This document shows, one piece after another, positions 55,633 through 63,634 of a stretch of DNA of 64,000 bases. Below the pieces are notes generated by a model. The model saw nothing but the letters and a program-made list of their open reading frames with translations. It had not been told where the DNA came from and searched no databases. The position numbers were made by a program, and so were the translations under genes. How positions within the stretch are numbered: position 1 is the first letter of the stretch; every line of letters starts with the position of its first letter. Source of the DNA: Pseudomonas putida (lineage in GTDB: Bacteria > Pseudomonadota > Gammaproteobacteria > Pseudomonadales > Pseudomonadaceae); contig CP124529.1 of the NCBI GenBank assembly GCA_029953615.1, positions 4,526,501 through 4,590,500 of the forward strand, in the 5' to 3' direction.

Positions 55633-58094
55633 TGAGACTGTTGTCGCTGGCCCTGCTGGCGCTGCTCAGCCATTGGCGACGCCATCGCGTGCAGTTCTTC
55701 AGCATCCTCACCGGCCTGTGGCTGGCCACGGCACTGTGGACCGGGGTGCAGGCGCTGAACAGCCAGGCACGCAGCGACTATGCCCGGGCCAGTGCGGTAC
55801 TGGCGGGGCCGCTGCAGGCGCAGCTGCTACCGCGCCATGGCGAGCGCTTCGACCAGGCGCTGTACGTGCAATTACGCAGGTTGGGCTGGGCAGTGTCGCC
55901 AGTGCTGGAAGGGCGCTTGCGCCTGCCGGGCGAGCCAGCGCGCAGCGTGCGCTTGATCGGCATCGAGCCGTTGAGCCTGCCGCCGGCCAGCAGCATTGCC
56001 GGCATTCAGCCGCAGGCATTCGACCTGCAGGCGTTCATCGGCATGCCCGGGCAAGCCTTGGTTGGGCCAGACACCTTGCAGCAATTGAACATCAACGCCG
56101 GGCAGGTAGCACACGATAACGAAGGGCAGTCGCTGCCTCCGTGGATATTGCAGCCTGAATTGGCGCCCGGAGTGATCGTGGTCGATATCGGCCATGCGCA
56201 GGCGTTGCTGCAAGCGCCTGGGCAGTTGTCGCGATTGCTGGTGGCCGATAACCCTGGGCGTTTGCCAACAGATGTCGAGGCATACCTTGAACTGCAACCC
56301 AAGGAGGACGACGGCGGTTTGCAGCGCCTGACCGACAGTTTCCACCTCAACATGACTGCCTTGGGCTTGCTGGCGTTCGTCGTTGGCCTGTTCATCGCCC
56401 ATGCGGCGATCGGCTTAGCGCTGGAGCAGCGGCGGGGGTTGATTCGCAACCTGCGCGCCTGTGGCATCAGCTTGAAGACCCTGTCATGCGCACTGGTGCT
56501 GGAGCTGGGCCTGTTCGCGCTGCTGGGCGGGATCGCCGGAGTGGCCAGTGGTTACGGGTTGGCTGCTTGGTTGCTGCCCGATGTCGCTGCCAGCCTGCGG
56601 GGCCTTTATGGCGCGCAGGTCGCTGGCACGTTGAGCCTGCCTGCGGGTTGGTGGCTGGCAGGGCTGTTGGTGAGCTTGCTCGGTGCATTGCTGGCAGGGC
56701 TGAGCAGCGTTCTGCGGGCAGCACGGTTGCCATTGCTGGCACTGGCGCAGCCGCAGGCCTGGCGAGTGGCGCTGGGGCCGTGGTTGAAGCGTCAAGCTTC
56801 AGTGGCGGGCCTGTTGCTGTTGCTGGCTGTGGGTTGTGGCGTGCTTGGCGATAGCCTGCCCAGCGCTTTCGCCATGCTGGCCGCGCTGCTGCTGGCGGCG
56901 GCGCTGTTGCTGCCGGCCTTGCTCGACCGGGTGCTGGCCTGGTTGGCGTGCCGTTGTCGGCGGCCCTTGTCGCAATGGTTCGTCGCCGACAGCCGCCAGC
57001 AATTGCCGGCCCTGAGCCTGGCATTGATGGCACTGTTGCTGGCGCTGGCCGCCAGTGTCGGCGTGGGCAGCATGACCGAGGGCTTTCGCAAGACCTTTGT
57101 CGGCTGGCTTGACGTGCGCCTTTCCGCCGACCTGTATGTCACGCCAAGGGACACCGCCCAAGGCTTGCAGATGGCCGAGTGGCTCGGGCAGCAACCTTCG
57201 GTGCGTGTGGTACTGCCCGGCTGGCGTGTGGAAACACAGCTGCAGGGCTGGCCGGTGCAGCTCCAGGGCATCGTCGATCATCCCGTCTATCGCACTCGCT
57301 GGCCATTGCTGGCGCAGCAAAAGCAGGCCTGGGAGCAACTGGCCGCCGGGCAGGCCGTGATGCTCAGTGAACAGCTGGCCAGGCGACTGAAGCTGCAAGT
57401 GGGCGATCACTTGAGGCTACCCGCATGCACTTCGCCAGCCCTGAGCGTTGTGGGCATCTATGCCGATTACGGCAACCCCAAAGGGCACATGCTGGTCAAT
57501 GCCGGCTGGCTGCGCGGGCACTGGTCACAGGCAACCCTGACCGGGTTGAGTGTCGATCTGGCGGTCGAGCAGGTGTCTGCGCTCAAGGCCGCTTTGCAAC
57601 AGCGCTTTGCCCTGGACGACAGCCGCGTGGTCGAGCAGGCGCGTCTCAAGCGCTGGTCCACCGAGGTGTTCAACCGCACCTTCGCCGCCACCGCCGCGCT
57701 CAACAGCCTCACCCTTGGCGTGGCTGGCGTGGCGCTTTTCATAAACCTGCTGACCCTGGGTCAGACCCGCCTGGGCCAGTTGGCGCCGCTGTGGGCACTG
57801 GGCGTGCGGCGCATGCATCTGGTGTGGCTAACCCTTGGGCAGACACTGTTGCTGAGCAGCCTTACCGTGCTGCTGGCGATCCCGCTGGGTATCCTGCTGG
57901 CCTGGTGCCTGGTCGCGGTGGTGAACGTGCAGGCATTCGGCTGGCGTTTGCCACTCTACGTGTTCCCTGCACACCTGCTGCAACTGGCCGTGCTGGGCAT
58001 GTTGACCAGCCTGTTGGCCAGCGCCTGGCCACTGTGGCGGCTGGCACGTCGCCAGCCGCGCGAACTGTTGAGGCCGTTTGCCGATGAAGCGTAG
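55632..58094 (+). CDS. ABC transporter permease, FtsX/MacB-like (AttG-type)
   Basis: An 820-residue membrane protein with two repeats of the FtsX-like permease, each with a large external domain and several helices. Helices are seen at the N-terminus ([13 protein letters not shown]), around 245-265, in the central block (about 300-470), and at the C-terminus ([13 protein letters not shown] onward). The start overlaps the ATPase stop by one base. Together with the ATPase and the following CrtC/AttH-like lipoprotein it forms a module like Agrobacterium attEFGH; the substrate is unknown. Confidence 0.85.
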
Positions 58095-59139
58095 CGCGTG
58101 GCTGTTGCTGTGCGGGTTGCTGGGCGGCTGTGATCAGCCCGCCGAGCAGAGCTATGCCGGGCTCGGGCAGCAGGCGGGCGAATTCAGCCAGGTAAGCCGC
58201 GGCCATCACCTGGAATTTCCGCGTGACCACGGGGCCCACGATGGCTTTCGTATCGAATGGTGGTATGTCACCGCAAACCTCCAGGACGCCCAAGGGCGTG
58301 ACTGGGGTGCGCAGTGGACGCTGTTCCGCTCGGCCCTGCGCCCCGGCCCCGAGACTGCCGGCTGGAACAGCCCGAACCTGTGGATGGGGCACGCGGCGCT
58401 GACCGGCCCGGGCGCTCATCAGTCTGCCGAAACCCTGGCGCGCGGGGGTATCGGCCAGGCGGGCGTGGAGGCGCAGCCGTTCCGGGCGTGGATCAATGAC
58501 TGGTCGTTGCAGGGCAGCCGTGGCATCGAGCAGCTGCAAATGGTCGCCAGTGGTGAAGGCTTTCGCTATGACCTGCAACTGCACAGCGATCGGCCCTTGG
58601 TGCTGCACGGGGATCAGGGTTACAGCGAGAAGTCCGGCAAGGGGCAGGCTTCGTACTATTACAGCCAGCCGTTCTACCAAGTGAGTGGGGAGGTGCAACG
58701 TGACGGCCAGTGCATTGCGGTCACCGGCAAGGCCTGGCTGGACAGGGAATGGAGCAGCCAGCCACTGGCCGCCGGGCAGACGGGATGGGACTGGTTTTCC
58801 CTGCACCTGGACAGTGGCGCCAGGCTGATGCTGTTCCAGGTACGCGAGGCGCAGGGGAAGGCGTATCGCGCTGGGACCTGGGTTGGCCCGCAGGGCGCGG
58901 TGGTGGCGCTGCAGGGTGCGCAGGTCCAGCTGCTTGCGCTGGCCTGGGCGCGGCAGAAGAATGGCAAAAAGGTGCCGACGCGGTGGCGGGTGCAGGTGCC
59001 GGGGCAGGGGGTGGATGTGCAGGTCGAGGCGGTGGAATCGCAGGCCTGGATGGAGACGCGGTTCCCGTATTGGGAGGGGCCGGTGCGCTTGACCGGGAGT
59101 GCGGGGGGGCGGGGGTATCTGGAGATGACTGGCTATTAG
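58084..59139 (+). CDS. AttH/CrtC-like lipoprotein
   Basis: A 351-residue protein with a lipobox LLGGC (lipid-anchored Cys at about residue 15) and the AttH/CrtC lipocalin-like fold: HDGFRIEWWYVTANLQD, NLWMGHAALTG, GKAWLDREWSSQPL. The family includes carotenoid hydratase CrtC, but here the ABC partner suggests a cell-envelope role. The ATG overlaps the permease end by 11 bases. Lipid attachment is predicted from sequence. Confidence 0.83.
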   Translation: MKRSAWLLLCGLLGGCDQPAEQSYAGLGQQAGEFSQVSRGHHLEFPRDHGAHDGFRIEWWYVTANLQDAQGRDWGAQWTLFRSALRPGPETAGWNSPNLWMGHAALTGPGAHQSAETLARGGIGQAGVEAQPFRAWINDWSLQGSRGIEQLQMVASGEGFRYDLQLHSDRPLVLHGDQGYSEKSGKGQASYYYSQPFYQVSGEVQRDGQCIAVTGKAWLDREWSSQPLAAGQTGWDWFSLHLDSGARLMLFQVREAQGKAYRAGTWVGPQGAVVALQGAQVQLLALAWARQKNGKKVPTRWRVQVPGQGVDVQVEAVESQAWMETRFPYWEGPVRLTGSAGGRGYLEMTGY

Positions 59140-59160
59140 CCGCCCATATCCATGCCATAA

Positions 59161-59283
59161 CGCGGTCCCGTGTAGGAGCGGCCTTGTGTCGCGAAAGGGG
59201 TGCGAAGCGCCCCCCAGGGTCCTCGTACACCACAGCATTGCCGGGGCCGCTTTGCGGCCCTTTCGCGACACGAGGCCGCTCCT
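59161..59283. repeat. REP pair, second unit interrupted by an IS110-family element
   Basis: The first unit is at 59161-59199. The inverse unit starts at about 59258 and stops at GCCGCTCCT (59283); its remainder, ACACAGGGCCGCG, lies at 60555-60567 beyond the insertion sequence. Joining the two parts gives a 39-base unit that differs from the inverse of the first at only 3 positions. Confidence 0.85.
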
Positions 59284-59299
59284 TGTATGTTGTGTCTGG

Positions 59300-59475
59300 C
59301 CTAGCGGGAGAGGTTATTCTCGTCGGGCTGAAGAAGCACTTCCGGGGAGGCCGATCGCTCCTGAAGGCAGGTATTGCCCCTGACCTTGTATGTAGAGAGG
59401 CCCCCCGCCTCATTGCCCACTGCGAAGAGTATCGAGAAGCCGACAAGTCGGACTTCGCATTACAAGGTTGCAGCA
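59300..59475 (+). ncRNA. Predicted bridge RNA of the IS110 element
   Basis: A 5' hairpin (about 59303-59330) is followed by two stem-loops. In the target loop, closed by GGGG-A-GGCC with GGCCCCCC, CGCTCCT (59356-59362) equals the left target CGCTCCT of the REP, and TATGTAG (59389-59395) pairs with the right target CTACACA with one mismatch. In the donor loop, AGAGTATC (59426-59433) equals the right end of the element (60546-60553), and TACAAG (59461-59466) is the exact complement of the core plus left end CTTGTA. The order 5' hairpin, target loop, donor loop follows IS621. Ends of the RNA are estimates. Confidence 0.65.
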
Positions 59476-59541
59476 GCATGAAGTTCGAAGGTCGGGGAAC
59501 CGGAGGCCATTGTTACCTAACTCGCTTGGGAGAGGGAAGGA

Positions 59542-60537
59542 ATGAGTGTCTGGGTTGGCGTCGATATCGGCTCACGTACTTCGGTCGTTGGGGTGCGTAA
59601 AGATGGGCGTCCGGCCGGACAGTGGGATATCGCTCAAACCCCTGCAGGCCGTAAGGCTGCGGTGAAAAAGCTGCTGGCACTCAAACCCAAGTCGATCGTG
59701 ATGGAGGCGACCGGAATCTATTACCTGGACTTGGCCCTTGAGCTACATGCGGCTGACCTCCCTGTATCCGTGATCAACCCCAAGAGCTTCCACAATTTCG
59801 CCAAACTGATGCTGGTGAACAGCAAGACCGATGCAATAGATGCTCAACTGCTGTCCGAGTACGGCGAGCGTATGACACCGCGCTTGTGGACACCTCCAAG
59901 CCTTGTGCAGCTTGAACTGAGGGCTCTGGGGCGACACATCAATCGTTTGGTGGGGCATCGTACAAGGGCGAAGAACGAACTGCATGCATTGCAGGCGACC
60001 GCTACAACCGTGTCGATGCTGATCGAGGATCAGGAGGAAGCGATTGCTTCACTGGATAATCGAATTGAGCGCTTTCGTAAGGCGGGCCGCGAGCTGGTCG
60101 CCCAGTGTCCGACGCTTACTCGGCAGTACAAGCAGCTGCTCGCAGGGCCTGGGATGGGAGAAGTCTCTGCACTTGCGGCATTGGCTGAACTGACCATCCT
60201 TCCTCAAATGCTCAAGTCCTCGCAGGTAGCTCGCCACGCGGGTCTCGATGTTCGACAGACCCAATCGGGAACGAGCATTGATAAGCCCGGCAGACTCGGC
60301 AAAAGTGGGAATGCTTATCTACGGGCAGCCATGTACATGCCTGCCTTGACCGCAGTGCGCTGCGACCCTTATGCGAAGGCTTTTTACGAGTCGTTGGTCA
60401 ACAGGGGCAAGAAGAAAATGCAGGCTATCGCTGCTGTCATGCGCAAGTACCTGACAGGCATCTGGGCATGTATGCGCGGGGATGAGCCATTTGATACGGC
60501 CAAGCTTTTCAGCTCTGAACACCTCAGAAAAGCTTGA
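59542..60537 (+). CDS. IS110-family transposase
   Basis: A 331-residue recombinase: RuvC-like DEDD domain with Asp8 (VGVDIGS), Glu55 (VMEATGIYY), Asp97 and Asp100 (KTDAIDAQLL), a coiled coil, and the C-terminal Tnp domain with GPGMGEVSALAALAEL and the serine nucleophile Ser242 in TQSGTS. All catalytic residues are present, so the element may be active. GGGAAGGA precedes the ATG. Confidence 0.92.
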   Translation: MSVWVGVDIGSRTSVVGVRKDGRPAGQWDIAQTPAGRKAAVKKLLALKPKSIVMEATGIYYLDLALELHAADLPVSVINPKSFHNFAKLMLVNSKTDAIDAQLLSEYGERMTPRLWTPPSLVQLELRALGRHINRLVGHRTRAKNELHALQATATTVSMLIEDQEEAIASLDNRIERFRKAGRELVAQCPTLTRQYKQLLAGPGMGEVSALAALAELTILPQMLKSSQVARHAGLDVRQTQSGTSIDKPGRLGKSGNAYLRAAMYMPALTAVRCDPYAKAFYESLVNRGKKKMQAIAAVMRKYLTGIWACMRGDEPFDTAKLFSSEHLRKA

Positions 60538-60576
60538 CCGCCAACAGAGTATCTACACAGGGCCGCGTCAGCCCAT

Positions 60577-61323
60577 TCAGTCTTTGATCAAGCCCCGCAA
60601 CACCGCCCGCGCTTCTTCGGTGCGCAAGCACTCGATGAACAACCGGCTTTCCCGCGCCACTGTCGCCTCTAGCTCGGCCCGCTGGCCGTCCTTGAGCAGC
60701 CGCTTGCTGATACGCAGCGCCGCCTGTGGGTAGCCTTGCAGCTGTCGCGCCAGCTTGCGGGCTGCAGCCAGGCACTGTTCGCCATCCTCATGCAGTTCAT
60801 TGGCAAGCCCCCAGGCCAGCATCTGTTCGCCGTCGAGCAACTCGTTTGCCAGCAGCAGGCGAGCCGCACGGGCATGGCCAAGCAAACGCGGCAGCAGCAG
60901 GCTGGAACCAAACTCCGGGCACACGCCCAACGGCGCGAAAGGGATGCGCAGCTTGGTCGTACGGCTGACCAGCACTTGGTCGCAATGCAACAGCAAGGTG
61001 GCACCGATGCCGATCGCCGCACCACTGACCGCGGCAATCAGCGGCTTGTCCAGGCCCATCACCACCCGCATCAGGCGGAACACCGGGCTGTCCAGGTCGG
61101 CGGGCGGGTTGTCGAGGAAGTCGCGCAAGTCATTGCCAGCGGTAAAGCAGTGCGGCCCACCGGTAATGATGATGGCCTCGACATCAGGGTCTTCACCTGC
61201 CGCCAGCAGCAGGTCGCCCAGCTGTTGGTACATGGCGGTGTTCAAGGCGTTGAGCTTGTCGGGGCGGTTGAAGGCCAGGGTCAGCAGGCCCTGGTCCAGG
61301 TCACGTGTGATCAGGTCGTTCAT
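60577..61323 (-). CDS. Enoyl-CoA hydratase/isomerase family protein
   Basis: A 248-residue crotonase-fold protein. The oxyanion-hole segments are IITGGPHCFTAGNDLRDF and VSGAAIGIGATLLLHCD. The acidic catalytic residues of true hydratases are not clearly in place (FAPLGVCPEFGSSLLLPRLLG holds one Glu), so it may be an isomerase or other crotonase. It is divergent from a TetR-type regulator 102 bases away. Confidence 0.85.
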   Translation of the reverse strand: MNDLITRDLDQGLLTLAFNRPDKLNALNTAMYQQLGDLLLAAGEDPDVEAIIITGGPHCFTAGNDLRDFLDNPPADLDSPVFRLMRVVMGLDKPLIAAVSGAAIGIGATLLLHCDQVLVSRTTKLRIPFAPLGVCPEFGSSLLLPRLLGHARAARLLLANELLDGEQMLAWGLANELHEDGEQCLAAARKLARQLQGYPQAALRISKRLLKDGQRAELEATVARESRLFIECLRTEEARAVLRGLIKD

Positions 61324-61425
61324 GGCAGCCGCTTTTGTTGTTGTGGGCTAGGGTGCCAAGGGTTTATCACGCAGTCTGGCTTGTTGTACAGTCGTTCAGT
61401 CCAACCCCTAGCCCGAGAGCCGCCG

Positions 61426-62070
61426 ATGAACCAGGAAGCCCGCTACCACCGCATGCTACCGGAATTGCGCAAAGCCAACCTGGTCGAGGCGACCCTGGCA
61501 TGCCTCAAGCGCCATGGCTTCCAGGGCGCGTCGATCCGCAAGATTTCGGCCGAGGCCGGGGTTTCGGTCGGGTTGATCAGCCATCACTACGCCGGCAAGG
61601 ATGAGCTGGTTGCCGAAGCCTACATGGCGGTCACCGGCCGGGTGATGGGCCTGCTGCGCGAGGCCATGGCCCAGGCCGCGCCCAATGCCCGCGAACGGTT
61701 GTCGGCGTTCTTCCGCGCCTCGTTCTGCGCCGAGTTGCTCGACCCGCAATTGCTCGACGCCTGGCTGGCGTTCTGGGGCGCGGTGAAGACCGCCGAGGCG
61801 ATCAACCAGGTGCATGACCATTCTTATGGAGAATACCGCAACGAACTGAGCGGGCTGCTGGCCACGCTGGCCGGGGAGGAGGGCTGGCAGGGCTTCGATG
61901 CCGACCTTGCGGCCATCAGCCTGAGTGCCTTGCTCGACGGCCTGTGGCTGGAGTCGGGGCTCAACCCCGGTACATTCACCCCCGAGCAGGGCGTGCTGAT
62001 CTGCGAGGCCTGGGTCGATGGCCTGCAGGCCGGTGGCCGGCGCCGCTTCAGTCTGCCGGAGGGTTGTTGA
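61426..62070 (+). CDS. TetR-family regulator, BetI-like
   Basis: A 214-residue protein with an N-terminal helix-turn-helix (GFQGASIRKISAEAGVSVGLISHHYAGKDELVAEAY) and a C-terminal domain like BetI. It is divergent from the enoyl-CoA hydratase gene, which it may control. Its ligand is not known. Confidence 0.85.
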   Translation: MNQEARYHRMLPELRKANLVEATLACLKRHGFQGASIRKISAEAGVSVGLISHHYAGKDELVAEAYMAVTGRVMGLLREAMAQAAPNARERLSAFFRASFCAELLDPQLLDAWLAFWGAVKTAEAINQVHDHSYGEYRNELSGLLATLAGEEGWQGFDADLAAISLSALLDGLWLESGLNPGTFTPEQGVLICEAWVDGLQAGGRRRFSLPEGC

Positions 62071-62144
62071 TCGCCTGTTCAGTAACGAGTACGCTGCTGT
62101 CGCGAGTGTGTAGAACAAACCAATAAAAAAAGAGACGACACGCA

Positions 62145-62861
62145 ATGACGCCTCGGGTATTGATCGTCGATGACGATCCGCTTATTCGTGACTTGCTGCA
62201 GGCCTATCTGTCCCGGGAAGGCTATGACGTGCACTGCGCCGACACCGCGGAACAGGCCGAAGCCCTGCTCGGCAGCCAAGATGTCGACCTGGTGTTGCTG
62301 GATATCCGCCTGCCCGGCAAGGACGGCCTTACCCTGACCCGCGAGCTGCGGGTACGTTCGGAGGTGGGCATCATCCTCATCACGGGGCGCAACGACGACA
62401 TCGACCGCATCGTCGGCCTGGAATGCGGCGCCGACGACTACGTGATCAAACCGCTCAACCCCCGCGAACTGGTATCCCGCGCCAAGAACCTGATCCGCCG
62501 CGTGCGCCATGCCCGTGAAGTACACCCGGCACCGGCCTGCGCGCAATCGCTGAAGCAGTTCGCCGACTGGGCGCTGGACACCGACCGCCGGCGGCTGATC
62601 GACGCCCGTGGCGGGCAGACACTGCTGACCCATGGCGAGTTTCAGCTGCTCAGCGTGTTTCTGCGTAACAGCGGCCACACCCTCAGCCGCGACCAGTTGA
62701 TGGACCAGATCCGCAACCGCGAGTGGGTGCCCAACGACCGCTCCATCGACGTGCTGGTCGGCCGCTTGCGGCGCAAGCTGCACGACGACCCGGCCGAGCC
62801 CCAACTGATCATCACCATCCACGGCACCGGTTACCTGTTCACTGCCAGTGTGGCGGCATGA
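62145..62861 (+). CDS. OmpR-family response regulator
   Basis: A 238-residue regulator: receiver with DDDP at the N-terminus, phospho-Asp in LVLLDIRLPG and Lys in YVIKPLNPREL; a winged-helix output domain with LLTHGEFQLLSVFLRNSGHTLSRDQL and RSIDVLVGRLRRKL. It overlaps the binding-protein gene (ATGA), which overlaps the sensor kinase, so the three form one two-component unit. It resembles TorR/AruR-type regulators; the signal is unknown. Confidence 0.92.
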   Translation: MTPRVLIVDDDPLIRDLLQAYLSREGYDVHCADTAEQAEALLGSQDVDLVLLDIRLPGKDGLTLTRELRVRSEVGIILITGRNDDIDRIVGLECGADDYVIKPLNPRELVSRAKNLIRRVRHAREVHPAPACAQSLKQFADWALDTDRRRLIDARGGQTLLTHGEFQLLSVFLRNSGHTLSRDQLMDQIRNREWVPNDRSIDVLVGRLRRKLHDDPAEPQLIITIHGTGYLFTASVAA

Positions 62862-63634
62862 CCCGCAGCGCCTGGGTGCTGGCCTTGGCATTGTTCGCCG
62901 TGCAAGCCAGCGCAGGGCAACCGGTGCGCTACTGCGACTACCCGGTGTACCCGCCGATTTCCTGGAGTGACGGCCACCAGGTGCGCGGCCTGGCCCCCAC
63001 CGTGGTGCGAGAGCTGTTCGCGCGCATGGGCCATGAGGTGCAGACCGTGGTGCTGGGCAACTGGAAGCGTTGCCTGATGGACGCCGCCGCCGGGCGAGTG
63101 GACGTGGTGCTGGCCTATAACAGCGACCAGCGTGACCAGCGCATGCGCTTTTCCACGGTGCCGGTGGTGCGCGAGGAAGTGGCGGTGTTCTACAACCGCC
63201 TGCGGCCGGTGCAGTTCCAGCGCCTTGAGGACCTGGCCGGCTACCGCGGCGGCCTGCTGTACGGCGAAAGCTACGGCGCCGAGTTCGACCGCTTCGTCGC
63301 CCGCCACCAGAACATCGAACGGGTGTCGTCCAGCCAGCAGAACTTCGGCAAGCTGATCCGTGGGCGCATCGACTACGTGATCCAGGAGCGGCGCACCGGC
63401 CAGCTGTTCATCGAAAACCTGCCCGGGGCGCAGGACATCCGCGTATTGCCCACGGCCCTGAGCGTGGACTACTTGCGTGTTGCAGTATCACGGCAATCGC
63501 CATTGAGCCAGCATATGGATGAAATCGACGCGCAGCTGCGGCGCATGAACCAGGCCGGCGAGATCGAGCGCTGGCTGGAACAAAGCGAAGTGACCTACCG
63601 CGACATGATCAACCTGCCGGCGGATACCCGATGA
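62858..63634 (+). CDS. Periplasmic solute-binding protein (family 3) in a two-component operon
   Basis: A 258-residue protein with a signal peptide (ending VQASAG) and an amino-acid-binding-type fold (YPPISWSDGHQVRGLAPTVVRELFARMGHEVQ, RVDVVLAYNSDQRDQRMRFS, RIDYVIQERRTGQLFI). No ABC permease or ATPase lies beside it. It sits between the response regulator and the sensor kinase with ATGA overlaps on both sides, so it probably delivers a ligand signal to the kinase rather than taking up nutrients. Confidence 0.87.
   Translation: MTRSAWVLALALFAVQASAGQPVRYCDYPVYPPISWSDGHQVRGLAPTVVRELFARMGHEVQTVVLGNWKRCLMDAAAGRVDVVLAYNSDQRDQRMRFSTVPVVREEVAVFYNRLRPVQFQRLEDLAGYRGGLLYGESYGAEFDRFVARHQNIERVSSSQQNFGKLIRGRIDYVIQERRTGQLFIENLPGAQDIRVLPTALSVDYLRVAVSRQSPLSQHMDEIDAQLRRMNQAGEIERWLEQSEVTYRDMINLPADTR

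Follow-up and report, generated by a model that had tools for sequence, protein, structure and literature searches.

An IS110-group element in a host REP

The window analysed here, a stretch of 64,000 nt from Pseudomonas putida, carries an IS110-group insertion sequence that interrupts a REP and adjoins a second, inverted REP. The locus is composed as follows:

59171..59210, minus strand: intact inverted REP adjoining the element (limits approximate), an in-window picture of the uninterrupted target with few base differences
59258..59283, plus strand: left part of the interrupted REP, including the left target CGCTCCT at 59277-59283
59282..59283, plus strand: left CT core (2-bp duplication)
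59284..60554, plus strand: IS110-group insertion sequence, 1,271 bp including the right-hand CT core, with ends set by comparing the 11 copies of its own genome
59542..60537, plus strand: IS110 recombinase of 331 aa, with residues aligned to the catalytic residues of IS621
60553..60554, plus strand: right CT core
60553..60569, plus strand: right part of the interrupted REP with the right target CTACA (outer limit approximate)

The domains of the recombinase, its serine and the layout of the ends identify the element as a member of the IS110 group. The protein showed a DEDD domain (PF01548, 1e-21) and a Transposase_20 domain (PF02371, 1.6e-17) with the catalytic serine present. Its residues D8, E55, D97, D100 and S242 align with D11, E60, D102, D105 and S241 of IS621, the roles of which are described in PMC11208158; the numbering of the IS621 structure chain in this alignment is the published numbering plus two. 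Solved relatives of the recombinase are ISCro4 (E 7.1e-40) and IS621 (E 8.7e-33). The non-coding left end is long, with 258 nt before the recombinase gene (tnp), and the right end is short, with 17 nt past the tnp stop codon including the core.

The host genome contains 11 near-identical copies of the element, comprising seven distinct sequences of 1,269-1,271 bp and suggesting recent activity. Plasmid records with a match numbered 2,674, every one of them below 60% identity. The copies of the own genome (L001-L011) differ in the length of a run of C inside the RNA modelled below, and this RNA may be tuned or broken in some of them.

Copies carrying the same guides in unrelated targets would weigh against RNA guidance and were looked for. 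All 11 copies lay in the same REP target, at one REP base and in one orientation, with the layout ...GGCCGCTC-[CT]-ACA..., so that no unrelated target was encountered in this genome. Exact GGCCGCTCCTACA sites numbered 231 in the host, against 6 for a reversed-pattern control. On the right side only CTACA was constant among the 11 targets; the sixth base was A in four, G in four, T in two and C in one.

The joined flanks of the window copy are identical to the intact inverted REP at 59171-59210 (minus strand) except for a few bases. This uninterrupted REP was used for the comparison in place of an empty site; a search for the latter by means of the right flank matched 9 of 57 genomes, the own genome included, and the five of eight loci of relatives that were checked (L181-L185) were without GCTCCTAC. 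An Rfam scan of 57000-63000 returned no bridge RNA family at E 1. Its sole match, mir-138 at 59177-59280 (26.1 bits against a gathering score of 50), was spurious and reflects the pair of inverted REP hairpins, not a microRNA.

A predicted bridge RNA with four guides

According to the original prediction the non-coding left end encodes a bridge RNA of two stem-loops in the order known from IS621, with guide segments matching both the target and the ends of the element. The features of this RNA and of a putative promoter, all on the plus strand, are:

59286..59291, plus strand: -10-like sequence TATGTT
59298..59480, plus strand: predicted bridge RNA, with predicted start and end
59298..59329, plus strand: 5' stem-loop (RNA fold)
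59343..59407, plus strand: target-binding stem-loop (RNA fold, covarying helices)
59356..59362, plus strand: left target guide (LTG) CGCTCCT
59389..59395, plus strand: right target guide (RTG) TATGTAG
59414..59478, plus strand: donor-binding stem-loop (RNA fold, covarying helices)
59426..59433, plus strand: left donor guide (LDG) AGAGTATC
59459..59466, plus strand: right donor guide (RDG) ATTACAAG (A, U, bulged U, ACAAG) for CTTGTAT, with a putative bulge modelled on the IS621 pairing
60534..60539, plus strand: -35-like sequence TTGACC, overlapping the tnp stop codon and 17 nt from the -10 in the circular form only

All four proposed matches were confirmed. The LTG (59356) agrees with the left target at 7 of 7 positions, the LDG (59426) with the right end of the element at 60546-60553 at 8 of 8, and the TACAAG of the RDG (59461-59466) with the complement of CTTGTA at 6 of 6. 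In 4,000 dinucleotide shuffles of 59297-59480 the chance rates of the single guides were 0.0155 (LTG), 0.148 (RTG), 0.00375 (LDG) and 0.0225 (RDG). The four guides together occurred in none of the 4,000 shuffles and in none of 640 pieces, each 184 nt long (both strands of 320 pieces from the first 58.9 kb of the window). The RTG match (59389), taken alone, is weak evidence. Its claimed agreement with the complement of CTACACA at 6 of 7 positions is correct, but the 7-nt target is not a constant one: since CTACA alone is shared by the 11 right targets, the effective right guide in this genome is about 5 nt.

In the predicted fold LTG and RTG face each other across one internal loop, and the second stem-loop contains LDG and RDG. 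In other words, sequence and predicted fold both give the order LTG, RTG, LDG, RDG over two stem-loops, and the IS621-like arrangement that had been proposed holds. The single-sequence fold energy was unremarkable (z -1.63; 13 of 200 shuffles were equally stable). The guides had further been said to include or abut the CT core. The core lies at 59282-59283 and 60553-60554, and the LDG takes in only its C. The same is reported for IS621, whose LDG (A123-C130) stops at the core C and whose RDG pairing is interrupted (PMC11208158). In the window element one bulged U would let the RDG, read as A-U-(U)-ACAAG, pair with all seven bases of CTTGTAT.

A consensus scan of the integrated sequence found no promoter-like site, as a promoter confined to the circle would predict. 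There, circularisation would join the -35 of the right end to the -10 of the left end and probably drive the bridge RNA. With the score defined as matches to the consensus plus 0.5 for a 17-nt spacing, TTGACC-17-TATGTT scored 9.5 in the circle, a value reached by 0.9% of 2,000 shuffles; the integrated left end scored 7.5. A promoter formed across the circular RE-LE junction is reported for IS621 (PMC11208160).

Guides and targets in Pseudomonas relatives

Searches with RNA models detected relatives in 13 and in 28 of 398 genomes of the genus. Combined with protein-based loci and fetched copies, these matches yielded 117 distinct insertions, which fall into 43 element groups; the genus searches covered 298 and 398 genomes, with at most 7-8 candidates scored per genome and the listed copies fetched in part. 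Two RNA matches with an unreadable left end (L086, L129) were left out. Insertions sharing genome and 30-nt flank were merged, which reduced the own genome from 11 to 8 and G312 from 6 to 3.

Covariance with other copies of the IS, suggested in the original prediction as a check, was present among relatives in the helices. Both sides had changed in 24 of 37 pairs of alignment A3 (the distant set, 28 distinct sequences) and in 4 of 39 pairs of A4 (the window element's own kind, 20 sequences), counts that none of 500 shuffles reached and that are somewhat inflated, A3 and A4 having been fitted to the structure of the models. For further pair types, the window element's own kind did not exceed its shuffles (500 of 500 reached its count). 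One member of the distant set (L025) has a recombinase 30% identical to that of the window.

The left guide covaries with the target as well. Over the 43 groups, 6.22 of 7 non-core positions of the LTG fitted its own target; permuted guides gave 3.96, and none of 10,000 permutations did as well. Groups count as independent in these permutations, although related genomes are not. In the 17 groups of the window's own kind the values were 5.23 and 4.80 (0 of 10,000), a smaller effect because guides there vary little. Left ends were located by the letters TTGTAT, and as this fixes the last T of each left target, that T was not counted as evidence. In the distant set, 65 of 69 insertions matched the LTG at all of the first 8 positions; the targets are of 12 different kinds, ACCCACCCT, GTACGCCCT, GTCCGCCCT, CGCGCTCCT and GCAGCGGCT among them. 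In the window's own kind, 46 of 48 insertions matched at positions 4-8 and 35 at positions 3-8. Positions 1 and 2 matched poorly (6% and 50%, group means); target position 2 was C or T in 45 of 48 insertions, which is compatible with U-G pairing. The guide ATCGCTCCT was associated with 34 insertions, ten of which had a mismatch at position 3 and one at position 4. The latter (L016 in G034, guide G and target A) is a counter-example.

On the right side, 93 of the 117 insertions offered a target of 7 nt or more. Where there were several right-end candidates, one followed by CTAC was preferred; this biases bases 3 and 4 of the right target, and the evidence was therefore confined to bases 5 to 7. 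RTG bases 5 and 6 covary with the target (0 of 2,000 permutations each by Watson-Crick pairing; 0 and 4 of 2,000 with wobble) and base 7 showed no covariation (1,520 of 2,000 permutations reached it). On the donor side there are three LDG forms, each equal to its own right end: right end AGAGTATCT with LDG AGAGTATC in the window element, ACGATATCT with ACGATATC in G182, and ACGGTATCT with ACGGTATC in other relatives. Right ends were sought with the guide letters; comparison of copies fixed them independently for the window's kind, for several relatives and for G182, which has two copies.

It might be argued that the main role of the left-end RNA is to regulate tnp, either as a structured 5' leader or as a small RNA, as proposed for Asr9 and Ssr9 of ISPpu9, and not to guide. 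ISPpu9 of P. putida is reported to have a 5'-UTR of 244 nt, and two sRNAs, each about 180 nt long, that affect tnp translation (PMC8450116), and the RNA predicted here ends about 60 nt upstream of tnp. A regulator, however, does not predict that loops covary with external target DNA, and we regard a mainly regulatory RNA as very unlikely. Guiding and regulation of tnp could coexist in one RNA.

The guide-RNA interpretation also gains from copies and relatives that use other REP variants, in which the guide changes that had been proposed for comparison were found, both in LTG and in RTG bases 5 and 6. The recombinases of G312 and PfAR1 are 98.5% identical and their guides read CGCTCCT and CACTCCT. 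At the changed guide position the G312 target GCAGCTCCT has G and the PfAR1 target CTCACTCCT has A, the same change as in the guides; the two targets differ at further positions, and for PfAR1 a single insertion was seen. G312 contains 577 CTCACTCCTACA sites, used by none of its six copies. G213, with the guide CACTCCT, contains 875 CTCACTCCTACA sites, and all four of its insertions are at CTCACTCCT.

These cases bear on the idea that the recombinase protein alone recognises the REP, by its sequence or its hairpin, with the guide-like matches being coincidence or captured REP sequence. Such recognition would agree with the finding that 11 of 11 host insertions lie in REPs, and transposases themselves have been credited with REP targeting for two IS of another family (Tobes and Pareja 2006, PMC1525189). 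It is at odds with nearly identical recombinases that use different targets when their guides differ, with the poorer fit of permuted guides, with the avoidance of the 577 CTCACTCCTACA sites by the six G312 copies, and with donor guides that match the ends of the element and not REPs. We consider recognition by protein alone extremely improbable.

Further groups show how far guides, targets and REP content go together. In G020, with the guide CGGTCC, four of five left ends are at GCCGGTCCT, and the four readable right targets start CTACG, as the RTG CCGTAG predicts. GCCGGTCCTACR sites number 113 in G020 and 243 in G182, with at most one in ten other genomes tested; GCCGCTCCTACA, the class of the window element, occurs 233 times in the host, 100 times in G217, whose elements have a left guide identical to that of the window element, and at most 8 times in ten others. 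The G182 element uses CCGGCTCCT despite the 243 GCCGGTCCTACR sites in its genome. The G041 target TGTCCGCCCTACR has only 2 sites in its genome, so that G041 lends no support to the tracking of an abundant REP class. Guides follow targets in nearly all groups, and the target is not always the commonest REP of the host.

Some copies showed unusual arrangements. Within G217 the guide is polymorphic: the RTG is TATGTAG in L054 and TCTGTAG in L013, L030 and L055-L058. In G213, a 75% relative, L079, L031 (= L092) and L100 share an extra piece, and three of the four copies were read through. The piece consists of a first right end AGAGTATC, some 410 nt from the 3' portion of tnp, a second right end and CTACAGG, and looks like a composite moving as one unit of about 1.7 kb. 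One place in G020 (L033, L082, L093) has two tandem left ends 286 bp apart, the second of which starts after a few codons of the first element's transposase gene, at GTCGGTCT, as if an element had inserted into its own gene and the remainder had been lost. Recombinase pieces of the Pseudomonas type also turned up at the ends of contigs in a metagenome bin labelled Klebsiella pneumoniae (L051, L052); these contigs are possibly mis-binned.

Proposed mechanism and relation to known elements

Taken together, homology and covariation indicate that the window element is very probably a REP-targeting IS110-group element guided by a bridge RNA. The element would be excised as a circle in which the right end is joined to the left end at CT. 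The circle would place the right-end -35 17 nt before the left-end -10, giving rise to a bridge RNA of about 180 nt, which would bind the recombinase. The first loop would pair with the host REP, the LTG with the bottom strand of CGCTCCT and the RTG with the top strand of CTACA, and the second loop with the circle junction, the LDG with AGAGTATC and the RDG with CTTGTAT. Strands would then be exchanged by the recombinase next to CT. As target choice would lie in the RNA, single guide mutations would shift the element to other REP classes, and the covariation supports such moves. The bridge RNA might even be the host-range gene of the element: one-base guide changes would shift near-identical Pseudomonas IS110 elements between host REP classes, guides and REP families would co-evolve, and REP turnover would set where the element spreads. 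To this wider proposal we give an even chance.

The system itself is of an already known type, its bridge RNA mechanism being known from related elements. A study of 2024 reported bridge RNAs and, over 5,511 pairs, how they covary with their targets (PMC11208160); natural reprogramming is reported for a pair of IS1111-family elements (PMC11187229), and insertion of ISPpu9 and ISPpu10 into REPs was reported in 2006 (PMC1525189). IS621 of E. coli resembles the window element in the order and place of the guides, the CT core, the LDG ending at the core C and the catalytic residues, and, as predicted for the window element, in an interrupted RDG pairing and a circle-junction promoter. It differs in that the recombinases are distant (E 8.7e-33) and another REP is targeted; the left guide is effectively 7-8 nt in the window element and 9 in IS621, and the RDG appears from its sequence to have one unpaired U where IS621 has two.

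The claim that the element provides a natural Pseudomonas member of this class was overstated. ISPpu10 of P. putida is among six examples drawn with LTG, RTG, LDG and RDG, according to the legend of Extended Data Fig. 10c of Durrant 2024, and ISPa11, which targets REPs of P. aeruginosa, is described as having had its seekRNA sequenced (Siddiquee 2024). The seekRNAs of ISEc21 and ISPa11 are presented there as RNAs of a non-coding region that match both target strands, like the RNA of the window element. Unlike the latter, ISPa11 is an IS1111-group element whose RNA lies downstream of tnp and whose guides come in reversed order. ISPpu10, an IS110-family element of strain KT2440, is described as sharing REP specificity, a 2-bp duplication and bridge RNA guides with the window element. 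Its name was absent from the names listed among the best 120 matches of two protein searches. Its REP target, ending in ACCCGCTCCTAC, differs from the target of the window element outside the reach of the guide. The junction ACCCGCTCCTTGTAT, used as a pattern for ISPpu10, was found in 0 of 398 genomes, which decides nothing on identity.

What is new here is only the natural series of guide changes that follow target classes, mostly REP classes, across Pseudomonas; a search of the open-licence literature found no paper on bridge RNA guides following REP classes across the genus. With 11 near-identical copies and more than 200 matching sites in its Pseudomonas genome, the element is a well-supported natural case of an RNA-guided recombinase. 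Its near relatives, whose guides differ by one or two bases, constitute a natural experiment on guide length, tolerance of mismatches and adaptation to the host, and the guide series may serve as a Pseudomonas-adapted tool.

ISPpu9, also from KT2440, is described as an IS110-family element with a REP target and sRNAs of about 180 nt, in these respects like the window element. It differs in duplicating AG, not CT, and in having two segments with Asr9 and Ssr9, which its authors read as regulators. Ssr9 is reported to be about 180 nt long, to lie on the sense strand between repeated A and B end boxes and to occur also in orphan copies (PMC8450116). Ssr9 looks as if it could act as a guide RNA carried by a minimal element and not solely as an RNA sponge.
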